Both the position numbers and the translations under genes were made by a program. This document shows positions 6,319 through 53,913 of a stretch of 64,000 nt of DNA, one piece after another (within the stretch, counting starts at the first letter, position 1; the number at the start of each line of letters is the position of its first letter). The stretch is from Hyphomicrobium facile (GTDB lineage Bacteria; Pseudomonadota; Alphaproteobacteria; Rhizobiales; Hyphomicrobiaceae): assembly GCF_900116175.1 (NCBI RefSeq), contig NZ_FPCH01000001.1, forward strand, positions 808,501 through 872,500, written 5' to 3'. The notes beneath the pieces are model-generated. The model was not told where the DNA came from. It made no database searches and saw only the letters and a list, made by a program, of their open reading frames with translations.

Positions 6319-7002
6319 CGTCCGATACCCCAAACAAATTCGAACTTATCTCAGTCCTCAGGTACCCAAGAAGCGTGCCAATCAAGAATAAGGCTTTGCT
6401 GCTACAGCAACCATGAAGAAATGCGTTAATGCCGACGGGCCGCCGCGTTGCACCAGCAGTCCGAAGACCCTCAAAAATATGTATGACATACTGCACTTAA
6501 GTTGCGGTAAAGCAACGGGTAACTATTTCTGACGACGCGTCTCGTTTGGGGGCAAAATTTAGTTCGAGGCGGTCTAGGGCATTCTTCCGAATTCTGTTAG
6601 CTCTTGATTCGAGCCGAATGCAGGTCAGAAGCGATCGGAGAGGTCAGGTAACGGGGTGGGCGCCTCGGAATCGGGCCTTGCGGAAGATCTGTCGGCGGTC
6701 AAGAGGGGCGCAGTTCTAATATTTTGATGTAATGGCGGGCCATGCTCTGGCGCGAACGAGGCATCTTTTTGCCTCGCGACCGGCAGCGGCGCGACCCGCT
6801 TCGCGGAAGCCATGTCTCCAGTAGTTGCTGCCAGAACACCGGCAAGTCGCTGCATGGTGAATTAGCTAACGCGAATTAGGGTTTGTTAACCTCTCGTCGC
6901 TAACTTCCTAACGATCGCTTAGCTCGATTGTTGTGCGTTTTCTTTGAGCGAAGGACAGACATAGCGCGGACACGGATCGTATAGGGCACCAGAGGGACGG
7001 TC
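6319..7002. other. Regulatory region between fliJ and ctrA
   Basis: About 680 bp between the divergent fliJ and ctrA genes. It holds an AT-rich segment (6480-6600) with TTAA-N7-TAAA at 6497-6511, a near match to a CtrA box, and two GANTC motifs (6606-6610, 6668-6672), the CcrM methylation sequence. A minus-strand frame of 76 codons (6625-6855) has no ribosome site or recognisable domain, and I do not call it a gene. The ctrA-proximal part carries a cluster of TTAA-type elements annotated separately. Confidence 0.55.
6862..6922 (+). promoter_or_regulatory. Cluster of CtrA-type half sites upstream of ctrA
   Basis: Within 61 bp there are TTAG (6862), CTAA (6866), TTAG (6876), TTAA (6886) and CTAA-N7-TTAG (6908-6922). 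The last has the exact spacing of a CtrA box and matches TTAA-N7-TTAA at 6 of 8 positions. The cluster ends 80 bp before the ctrA start. Autoregulation of ctrA through such sites is known in Caulobacter; that it happens here is an inference. Confidence 0.45.
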
Positions 7003-7701
7003 ATGCGGGTTCTACTCATTGAAGACGACAGTGCCACGGCGCAGAGCATCGAGCTTATGCTTCAGTCGGAAGGTTTTAACGTTTACACGACGGATCTCGG
7101 CGAAGAGGGCGTCGATCTAGGTAAGCTTTATGATTACGATATCATTCTCCTAGATCTAAACCTCCCGGATATGAGCGGTTACGAAGTTCTGAAGACACTT
7201 CGCGTTGCGAAGGTCGGAACGCCGATTCTTATTCTGTCGGGTCTTGCAGGTATCGACGACAAGGTTCGGGGTCTCGGCTTCGGCGCCGACGACTACATGA
7301 CGAAGCCCTTCCATAAGGATGAGCTCGTCGCACGCATTCAAGCGATCGTGCGCCGTTCGAAAGGACACGCCCAATCGGTTATCGAAACCGGCGACCTTCG
7401 CGTCAATCTCGACACCAAGACAGTCGACGTCAATAACCAGCGCGTACATCTGACAGGTAAAGAATATCAGATGCTCGAGCTCCTTTCGCTCAGGAAGGGC
7501 ACGACGCTGACCAAGGAGATGTTCCTTAATCATCTCTACGGCGGGATGGACGAGCCGGAGCTGAAGATCATCGACGTCTTCATCTGCAAGCTCAGGAAGA
7601 AGCTTCAGGCAGCGACTGGCGGCAAACACTACATCGAAACCGTCTGGGGCCGCGGATATGTGCTGCGCGATCCGGGACATGAAGGTTCGGAAGCCGCTTA
7701 A
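7003..7701 (+). CDS. ctrA: Cell-cycle response regulator CtrA
   Basis: This 232-residue OmpR-type regulator has a receiver domain with acidic pocket EDD (residues 7-9), phosphoacceptor Asp51 (LLDLNLPD) and Lys in TKPFH. The winged-helix DNA-binding domain includes [26 protein letters not shown] and [10 protein letters not shown]. These match CtrA closely. CtrA controls replication, division and polar or flagellar genes through TTAA-N7-TTAA sites. The protein ends in Ala-Ala, the C-terminal signal needed for ClpXP degradation of CtrA in Caulobacter. SciP and RcdA are also encoded in this window. A cluster of TTAA/TTAG motifs precedes the gene. Confidence 0.97.
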
Positions 7702-39259: not shown

Positions 39260-39451
39260 ATGGACCTCGATGATTTGATGCCGCGAAAGAAGCCGAGCGG
39301 GGCTGCTATCGGAGACAATCTCGAAACGCTGTCGGTCGCCGAGCTTGAAAAGCGGATCGCGGATCTCAACGCGGAGGTCGCGCGCGTGAACGTGGAGCTC
39401 GATCGCAAGCGCCAGCACGAAGCCGCGGCGCGCGCACTTTTCAAATCGTGA
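39260..39451 (+). CDS. DUF1192 family small coiled-coil protein
   Basis: The 63-residue protein MDLDDLMPRKKPSGAAIGDN then LSVAELEKRIADLNAEVARV matches DUF1192, a short family of Rhizobiales and relatives. It has an acidic start and a coiled-coil helix ending RQHEAAARALFKS. GGAGG lies 10 bp before the ATG. Function unknown. The nearest downstream feature on the strand is the CtrA box and terminator region before rcdA, about 220 bp away. Confidence 0.85.
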   Translation: MDLDDLMPRKKPSGAAIGDNLETLSVAELEKRIADLNAEVARVNVELDRKRQHEAAARALFKS

Positions 39452-39567
39452 AGCAGCTCTGAAGCATCTATTTGAAATGCGCTTTGCGGTGTCCGATTTT
39501 GGGATTGGACCAATTTGGCGCAATGTCTCGATTTGCTAACGCTGGAACCGTGCGCGGATGGTTTCAC

Positions 39568-39582
39568 TTAACTGAACTTTAA
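39568..39582 (+). promoter_or_regulatory. Exact CtrA box TTAA-N7-TTAA
   Basis: TTAA (39568-39571), CTGAACT, TTAA (39579-39582) is an exact consensus match. It lies 117 bp after the DUF1192 stop and 251 bp before the rcdA start. A factor-independent terminator at 39671-39700 lies between the box and rcdA, so the box may serve a short transcript (see the candidate RNA at 39597) rather than rcdA directly. Confidence 0.7.
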
Positions 39583-39596
39583 GCATATCCGGCCAT

Positions 39597-39700
39597 TTTG
39601 AGACTCGATCCAGGCCATCTGGATAAAAGCGGTCCCTCTGCCGCTTGTTGACGCCTCACTGTTGACCTTCGAGCCGCTCTTTGAGGGCGGCTCTTTTTTT
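39597..39700 (+). ncRNA. Candidate small RNA behind a CtrA box
   Basis: Downstream of the exact CtrA box a -10-like CATATC (39584-39589) is in place. A hairpin AAGCGG/CCGCTT (about 39627-39646) and a strong terminator (GAGCCGC, loop, GCGGCTC, then seven T; 39671-39700) follow. No ORF with a ribosome site is present. The unit would be about 104 nt. An alternative is that the terminator belongs to a long 3' end of the DUF1192 mRNA. The start is an estimate. Confidence 0.35.
39671..39700 (+). terminator. Strong terminator before rcdA
   Basis: GAGCCGC (39671-39677), loop TCTTTGAGG, GCGGCTC (39687-39693), then seven T. It should end any transcript coming from the DUF1192 gene or from the CtrA box at 39568. 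Confidence 0.9.
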
Positions 39701-39832: not shown

Positions 39833-40381
39833 ATGAGTAACGTATATCGCGTGGACGGCGCGCCTGCGGGCGGCGCCACAACGGTCTCGTTCGGTGAGCG
39901 GTTTCAGTCCTCCGAGCAGTTTGACCACATCTTCAAGGAAGGCATGGCGCTCGTTGAGCGCACGGCAAGCTACCTTGATGGACCGGGCCGGAAAGAGGCC
40001 AAGGATCTCGTAGGCGGCGTGGGCGTGCTCTATGCCACCGAAAGCATGAGGCTTACAACTCGGCTGCTCGACCTTGCTTCGTGGCTCTTGATCCGTCGCG
40101 CGCTGCGTGAGGGTGAGATCACCGACGAAGAGGCTCAGAAGAAGCGCCGCCGCGTGAAGCTGCAGGCTTTCGGCCGGCCGTCGCACGTCAAAGGCTACAC
40201 CGAGCTTCCGCAAGGTTTGCAGAACCTGATCGAGGAAAGCTTCCAGCTTCACGATCGCATCTCGCAGCTCGATCGCGTGTTGGCGAAGCCTTCCGCTGCC
40301 GAGACGCCGCAAGCGGCCGTCAATCCGGTTGCACAGCAGGTGGGCCTGCTCGAGCGCGCGTTTTCAGTGAAATTCAGCTGA
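39833..40381 (+). CDS. rcdA: RcdA-like regulator of CtrA degradation (DUF1465)
   Basis: This 182-residue all-helical protein has the DUF1465 pattern: FGERFQSSEQFDHIFKEGMA, TASYLDGPGRKEAKDL, YATESMRLTTRLLDLASWLL and VKLQAFGRPSHVKGYTELP. In Caulobacter RcdA is an adaptor that, with CpdR and PopA, helps bring CtrA to ClpXP. ATG 39833 (MSNVYRVDG) has GAGGG just upstream; a TTG at 39824 is less likely. It is followed by a strong bidirectional terminator. TTAACTAT at 39761-39768 is a possible CtrA half site. Confidence 0.9.
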   Translation: MSNVYRVDGAPAGGATTVSFGERFQSSEQFDHIFKEGMALVERTASYLDGPGRKEAKDLVGGVGVLYATESMRLTTRLLDLASWLLIRRALREGEITDEEAQKKRRRVKLQAFGRPSHVKGYTELPQGLQNLIEESFQLHDRISQLDRVLAKPSAAETPQAAVNPVAQQVGLLERAFSVKFS

Positions 40382-42821: not shown

Positions 42822-42836
42822 TTAACGTTTCATTAA
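42822..42836 (+). promoter_or_regulatory. Exact CtrA box TTAA-N7-TTAAC after the ABC exporter
   Basis: TTAA (42822-42825), CGTTTCA, TTAA (42833-42836), followed by C, is an exact match to the extended CtrA consensus. It lies 19 bp after the exporter stop and 13 bp before the ATG of a 40-codon ORF. No other plus-strand gene lies downstream before 48 kb, and the minus strand to its left is the antisense of the exporter. Confidence 0.65.
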
Positions 42837-42849
42837 CATCCGCGTGCTG

Positions 42850-42972
42850 ATGATTGCTGTCATGAAAGCACTGACGGTCATTGTCGTTCTGTTTGGCTGT
42901 TTCGCGTACGATATCTCGTACAACAACGCCGAGCTGATCCATTGGCTCGCGGACACGCTCAGACTCTCATAA
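42850..42972 (+). CDS. Putative 40-residue membrane protein
   Basis: The frame from ATG 42850 reads MIAVMKALTVIVVLFGCFAY, then DISYNNAELIHWLADTL, ending RLS, and stops at TAA 42970-42972. It predicts one hydrophobic helix and a short amphipathic tail. No ribosome site precedes it. The box at 42822 would place a transcript start near 42860, so a leaderless start at the inner ATG 42862 (MKALTV) fits the geometry. Coding status is not proven. Confidence 0.42.
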   Translation: MIAVMKALTVIVVLFGCFAYDISYNNAELIHWLADTLRLS

Positions 42973-53721: not shown

Positions 53722-53880
53722 GTCATGCTGCGGGGCTCGTCAGGGACAAATGACCCGGGGGCCTATAAGATCCGCACGGGTGCTGTCCCTGTCCGGAGCC
53801 GTGGCTTCGGACACATGGTGCCCACCTACAATCGTAGGGACCACGCGGGATCATGTTCCCAACGGCCTTCGCGGCACTTA
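53722..53880 (+). ncRNA. ssrS: 6S RNA
   Basis: The stretch folds into a closed rod: the ends pair (TGCTGCG at 53726-53732 with CGCGGCA at 53870-53876), inner arms pair (GATCC near 53769-53773 with GGGATC near 53848-53853), and a perfect apical hairpin (GTCCGGAGCC, 53791-53800; GGCTTCGGAC, 53803-53812) closes the top. Length is about 158 nt. In many bacteria 6S RNA sits exactly between zapA and the 5-formyl-THF cyclo-ligase gene, as here. 6S RNA mimics an open promoter and binds sigma70-RNA polymerase. Ends are estimated to a few bases. Confidence 0.82.
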
Positions 53881-53913
53881 TTTCGACGGAAAGAGCGTTT
53901 GACTGCGGAAGCT

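Follow-up and report, generated by a model that had tools for sequence, protein, structure and literature searches.

A BjrC1505-family small RNA gene with a probable CtrA-activated promoter upstream of rcdA in Hyphomicrobium facile

Features of the locus and structure of the RNA

The window, by which we mean the whole 64-kb stretch of Hyphomicrobium facile DNA that was analyzed, carries an exact CtrA box, a predicted -10 element and a small RNA with its own terminator between the gene of a DUF1192 small protein and rcdA. The presumed regulator gene, ctrA, lies in the same window. The features considered here are the following.

7003-7701, + strand: ctrA, the presumed regulator (ORF; 87% identical over 224 aa to an approximate CtrA query sequence)
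39260-39451, + strand: upstream neighbour, gene of a DUF1192 small protein (Pfam PF06698, 79.8 bits)
39568-39582, + strand: CtrA box TTAA-N7-TTAA (TTAACTGAACTTTAA), exact match, spanning roughly -38 to -24 relative to the predicted RNA start
39594-39599, + strand: predicted -10 element CATTTT (box-anchored base frequencies in the window's own family)
39606-39700, + strand: BjrC1505-family small RNA of about 95 nt (Rfam RF02356 and model R1; 5' end predicted)
39608-39624, + strand: hairpin 1, ATCCAG/CTGGAT (fold; helix paired to 99.1% across the alignment of 73 sequences, compensatory changes included)
39627-39646, + strand: hairpin 2, loop CCCTCT, consensus CUCCUGU (fold; helix 99.1% paired; anti-Shine-Dalgarno-like)
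39647-39666, + strand: conserved linker and probable seed, consensus TGTTTGACGCCTCCCTGTT, here GTTGACGCCTCACTGTTGAC (alignment A1)
39671-39700, + strand: factor-independent terminator, 10-bp stem plus seven T (fold; helix 99.0% paired)
39833-40381, + strand: downstream neighbour, rcdA, encoding a protease adaptor, DUF1465 (NCBIfam NF051867, 183.6 bits)

An earlier description of this DNA, made without database searches (the sequence-only reading), had named the downstream gene rcdA, as the NCBIfam match bears out; the encoded protein is 99% identical to the RcdA of a Hyphomicrobium sp. MAG. The same description had placed a 6-bp hairpin and a strong terminator with seven T behind the box, in a stretch free of ORFs. 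Folding recovered the hairpin, in which 39608-39613 pairs with 39619-39624, and the terminator, whose stem at 39671-39693 is followed by the seven T and is conserved among the aligned sequences; it also yielded the second hairpin at 39627-39646, additional to the single one described before. No ORF of at least 60 aa overlapped 39568-39700. The fold of 39597-39700 was better than that of all 200 shuffled sequences (z -3.3). The 19 base pairs of the RNA body were formed in 99.1% of the cells of the alignment of 73 sequences, 11 of the 19 had changed on both sides, and none of 500 shuffles reached the observed level of covariation.

The linker GCCUCCCUGU was intact in 169 of 202 genomes of the order and its CCUCCC core was kept in 180 of them; in the H. 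facile copy this core reads CCUCAC. Ten of the 202 genomes were without even CUCCC, nine of these belonging to the window's own family. Within Hyphomicrobium the core (39654-39659 here) varies among CCUCAC, CCUCUC and CCUCCU, loci L236, L239 and L315 being among the examples. Judged from these letters, it is as if the targets or the function of the RNA had shifted in this lineage.

Family membership and promoter region

Rfam family RF02356 (BjrC1505) covered 39561-39700 over model positions 1-140 with 54.3 bits, the gathering score being 50. The H. facile RNA shares sequence and structure with the family over the full model: the three-helix body, the conserved linker GACGCCUCCCUGUU and the terminator can all be aligned, the CCUCCC core differing by a single substitution. 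It departs from the Rfam entry in this CCUCAC and in the reading of the first 45 nt or so, which the entry includes and which we read as a promoter with a CtrA box. Five other Rfam families matched the 3' part of the RNA, all below their thresholds. Among them were suhB/mmgR (RF00519; 29 bits against a gathering score of 41) and SorY (RF02651; 24.4 bits against 111), which cover just that 3' part and have in common with the BjrC1505 consensus a CCUCCCU...ACUU ahead of the terminator. The window also holds a 6S RNA gene at 53722-53881 (RF00013, 63.7 bits).

Madhugiri et al. (2012) reportedly confirmed BjrC1505 of B. japonicum on gel blots and by sequencing, and found less of it in nodules. The sequence-only reading had suggested a new element of the CtrA circuit. 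As an RNA it is not new, being already catalogued as RF02356, so CtrA control alone is the candidate novelty, and this link was absent from the literature searched: neither a CtrA-controlled RNA at rcdA nor CtrA control of BjrC1505 was found in the main texts of open-licence articles, the founding BjrC1505 paper lying outside that set. BjrC1505 occurred there as a name in a table.

Pattern matching confirmed the exact CtrA consensus that had been claimed at 39568-39582, as well as the presence of two exact boxes in the window, against 0.09 expected from dinucleotide shuffles. Yet the accompanying chance estimate of 0.1 to 0.2 sites per 64 kb proved too strict, as the 4.43-Mb genome has 26 exact sites, which makes 0.38 per 64 kb. 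A backward control pattern gave 33 sites genome-wide against these 26, and rarity of the box was rejected as an argument. Since exact sites show no genome-wide excess over the backward control, the box alone is not improbable; it is the arrangement of box and RNA that goes beyond chance, because it is conserved among relatives. The other exact box of the window, at 42822-42836, lies 25 bp 5' of a 36-codon ORF (42862-42972), which has a hydrophobic start and comes directly after an ABC-transporter gene.

The lack of enrichment, together with the fact that Rfam models the box stretch as RNA, would suit a real RNA in which TTAA-N7-TTAA reflects an AT-rich -35 region or RNA structure, with no action of CtrA. 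We placed the pairs of the Rfam alignment on box-anchored ungapped sequences. Those of the first 43 positions or so were formed in 47% of the cells across 186 genomes, compared with 32 to 42% for slid partners and with 99.1% for the pairs of the body. Family f32 taken alone (13 genomes) is a point on the side of RNA structure, with 63% of the cells paired against 22 to 49% for slid partners. Against it, both TTAA halves were far more conserved than the spacer in the box-anchored alignment, most spacer positions being free and T being frequent at position 3 of the first TTAA, and CtrA of S. meliloti is reported to bind the corresponding region (PMC4433202). An RNA without any action of CtrA seems to us very improbable. 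For most of the order the pairing comparison suggests instead that the 5' part of RF02356 (39561-39605 here) is promoter DNA modelled as RNA, and the family boundary looks too wide at this end.

The -10-like hexamer of the sequence-only reading stood in part. In the box-anchored loci of the window's own family the two most conserved positions were A at +27 (frequency 0.86) and T at +31 (0.82), and CATTTT at 39594-39599 retains both, but the element is weak and a sigma-70 promoter scan called no promoter at this locus. A recount led us to reject an order-wide TAnnnT -10 element: the full motif at box+26 to +31 is largely a property of the own family (22 of 36 loci, versus 6 of 97 in other families). 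In the other families a TA lay within box+25 to +29 in 80 of 97 loci. Of 133 loci, 31 were without the TCCAG of hairpin 1; among the 102 that have it, it stood at box+39 to +41 in 91. With a -10-like element near box+26 and hairpin 1 near box+39, the start is therefore predicted near box+38, which is 39606 here. The roughly 100-nt RNA proposed before is thus retained at about 95 nt, with its 5' end predicted.

The position of the box relative to this start bears on the sense of the regulation. For one Caulobacter promoter pair, the authors of PMC4287350 attribute activation to a CtrA motif whose 5' end is at -39 and repression to one at -14. The 5' end of the box lies here at about -38 of the start predicted from relatives, near the activating -39. 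CtrA might still repress a real RNA, which would then be made only in the absence of CtrA: boxes closer to the start are read as repressing in the same source (PMC4287350), and the start used here is itself predicted. As that predicted start puts the box 5' end at about -38, we regard repression as unlikely.

Conservation of the box, RNA and rcdA arrangement

The 169 loci fetched through Rfam had an rcdA ORF on the same strand in 156 cases and a DUF1192 relative, by phmmer, in 131. A box with at least 7/8 matches ended 105 to 132 nt before the RNA end in 153 of them, a count that is biased because the RF02356 model covers the box, and that was set aside. Model R1 is a covariance model of RNA bodies cut after the promoter and has no box column. 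For its training 75 bodies were chosen among the 169 loci, up to 12 from the window's own family and up to three from each other family of the order, on condition that the box matched at 6/8 or better; the final 73 exclude the aberrant L127 as well as L110, whose sequence is identical to that of L104. As the bodies were cut at box+37, the 5' end of R1 reflects the chosen start and does not tell where exactly the RNA begins. R1 scored 64.6 bits on the H. facile copy (39606-39700), a sequence that is in the training set.

The sequence-only reading had proposed a covariance search of related genomes and a check on whether box, hairpin and terminator stay together in close relatives, and both gave positive results. 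R1 found the RNA in 354 of 397 genomes of the order, many of them shared with the Rfam survey, in which RF02356 matched 254 of 297 genomes of the order (222 above the cut-off), 32 of 289 genomes of the class (three of these being members of the order) and none of 14 control genomes. In the nine genomes of the window's genus that were examined, the RNA was present in all nine, with rcdA, and the box was 8/8 in seven and 7/8 in two; the arrangement was likewise kept across the order.

We examined 82 R1 loci, hand-picked from the match lists and so not a random sample. L227 (at a contig end) and L256 (a second, weak match within one genome, with a box of 4/8) were not counted, leaving 54 loci of the order and 26 outside it. 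Among the 54, all outside the R1 training set, a box of at least 7/8 was found within 65 bp upstream in 53, versus 2 of 320 control segments of the same length, rcdA was downstream in 53, and the best box match ended 21 to 23 bp before the R1 start in 45. Outside the order a box of at least 7/8 accompanied the match in just 9 of 26 loci and rcdA in 8 of 26, which makes it probable that many of these matches belong to other RNAs carrying a CCUCCC-terminator module. Five of them (L277, L280, L283, L286 and L287) are RNAs that share a GACGTGAAGCCTCCCTGT...terminator module; immediately upstream of them no box reached 5/8, and the sequence fetched around them had no rcdA. The RNAs with the GACGTGAAGCCTCCCTGT-terminator module possibly form a wider superfamily with suhB/mmgR and SorY.

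The arrangement was also recovered from the side of the protein. Among 46 loci found by RcdA alone, in genomes that overlap with the earlier sets, R1 gave a strong match in 40, a weak one in one and none in five, one of the latter (L352) having just 130 bp available upstream of rcdA. The 41 loci with the RNA had a box of at least 6/8 in every case and of at least 7/8 in 34, the latter level being reached in none of 235 controls. None of these locus counts should be read as independent events, because the genomes are related.

CtrA, rcdA and the putative action of the RNA

CtrA orthologues were found in 80 of 80 genomes tested. Degenerate CtrA-like sites (6/8) lie at 6875 and 6908, upstream of ctrA in the window (6875-6922), and from their sequence and position may possibly be autoregulatory. 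Family membership, structure, box position, synteny and the presence of CtrA are established by computation.

In line with the premise of previous genome surveys, the box could be the CtrA site of rcdA, and hairpin and terminator an attenuated leader that tunes read-through into rcdA. An rcdA ORF did lie downstream of the RNA in the 156 of 169 and 53 of 54 loci mentioned above. According to the articles cited, both S. meliloti and agrobacteria have CtrA motifs 5' of rcdA (PMC3616915, PMC10469942), predicted CtrA control of rcdA is described as conserved (PMC2877005), and the S. meliloti rcdA promoter gives a CtrA ChIP-seq signal (PMC4433202). However, PMC4433202 does not see S. meliloti rcdA respond significantly to CtrA depletion. 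The terminator, moreover, is conserved, its helix being 99.0% paired, and loci L104 and L110 keep the RNA although the rcdA ORF is about 1 kb downstream; on these two grounds an attenuated leader is disfavoured.

Boxes of at least 7/8 were also present in the gap between terminator and rcdA, in 47 of 195 genomes of the order versus 3% of shuffles. In family f21, which from its likeness to the S. meliloti locus is presumably Rhizobiaceae, a separate exact box follows the terminator in 16 of 17 genomes, often TTAACCCTTTCTTAA (L251 and L297 are among these loci), a further argument against a leader; outside f21 a box of at least 7/8 was present in 31 of 178 genomes, and in the window's own family in 0 of 49. 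With a second box in 47 of the 195 gaps, rcdA itself may be subject to CtrA too in a minority of genomes, a point against our main reading. S. meliloti Ak57 (CP090106, labelled pSymB) shows the order DUF1192 gene, TTAACCGCAAATTAA box, RNA, terminator, second exact box and rcdA (DUF1465), followed 3' by rpmE and then by an ABC transporter gene. Its RNA scored 40.1 bits with R1 and 27.2 bits with Rfam, the latter below threshold. In agrobacteria rcdA has multiple starts, with CtrA sites further upstream than in Caulobacter (PMC10469942). A CtrA-driven RNA, as a missing CtrA target in S. meliloti, would explain part of these findings and of the binding without rcdA response, an explanation that is weakened because S. 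meliloti rcdA has its own exact box. For H. facile we give the leader little credence, and the sequence-only reading, which had offered it as a second option, was right in finding simple CtrA activation of rcdA a poor fit, as the conserved terminator between box and rcdA supports.

We think it likely that 39568-39700 is a stand-alone gene of a trans-acting BjrC1505-family sRNA with a CtrA-activated promoter. The possible CtrA-controlled small RNA before rcdA that had been put forward from the sequence is supported in this form, the unit being conserved in the genus and across the order. With the box overlapping the -35 region, phosphorylated CtrA would bind to it and recruit RNA polymerase; transcription would start near 39606 and end at the terminator at 39700. 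Because the terminator would stop transcription there, the CtrA input would feed the RNA of about 95 nt rather than rcdA. Through two anti-Shine-Dalgarno-like C-rich stretches, the loop of hairpin 2 and the linker, the RNA would probably cover ribosome-binding sites of mRNAs in trans. Other anti-Shine-Dalgarno RNAs block ribosome-binding sites in trans, and by analogy the conserved CCUCCC suggests pairing of this kind. We infer CtrA binding and activation, the exact start, the trans action and the targets.

The ctrA mRNA was considered as a conserved target and found little support. Between the RNA and ctrA positions -35 to +15 in 81 genomes, the mean duplex energy was -30.2 for matched and -30.6 for permuted pairs, with 92% of permutations equalling or beating the matched pairs (44% in the own family, 62% in other families and 7.5% in the nine genomes of the own genus). 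The longest Watson-Crick run against ctrA -30 to -1 was 5.44 in matched and 5.26 in permuted pairs, a value reached by 1.75% of permutations with kinship ignored, by 12% in the own family and by 54% in the own genus. Accordingly, a 9-nt match between the H. facile RNA and the ribosome-binding stretch of ctrA in the same genome is not counted as evidence. By duplex energy among 80 ORF starts of the window, spurious frames included, ctrA ranked 8th and rcdA 37th.

Three described sRNAs invite comparison, each on the basis of the cited parts of the articles. CcnA of Caulobacter crescentus is also a CtrA-linked ncRNA, but it measures 182 nt and is part of the replication origin, whereas the RNA described here has about 95 nt and lies between the DUF1192 gene and rcdA; for S. 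meliloti the authors of CcnA report no clear detection of a similar homologue (PMC8959179). EcpR1 (SmelC291) and GspR of S. meliloti are trans-sRNAs acting on cell-cycle genes, and EcpR1 is broadly conserved in Rhizobiales (PMC4414408, PMC7143759). EcpR1 is stress-induced and located downstream of divK-pleD (PMC4414408), in contrast to the flanking DUF1192 gene and rcdA of the present RNA, and neither EcpR1 nor GspR is described in those parts as CtrA-driven or as lying at rcdA (PMC4414408, PMC7143759).

A wider proposal can be put forward only tentatively, and we lean slightly against it: a Hyphomicrobiales-wide, CtrA-activated anti-Shine-Dalgarno sRNA might be the missing CtrA output of the rcdA locus, with Caulobacter CcnA as its functional counterpart at a different place in the genome, and might repress mRNAs of the cell cycle or of polar development. 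The 5' end of Rfam RF02356 deserves re-examination. If CtrA does drive this RNA, CtrA would gain a post-transcriptional arm, and the master regulator of the cell cycle would have direct control of an sRNA present in most examined genomes of the order. That CtrA controls rcdA counts as part of the conserved circuit, and a CtrA-driven RNA would account for part of the S. meliloti and agrobacterial observations that fit this view poorly.
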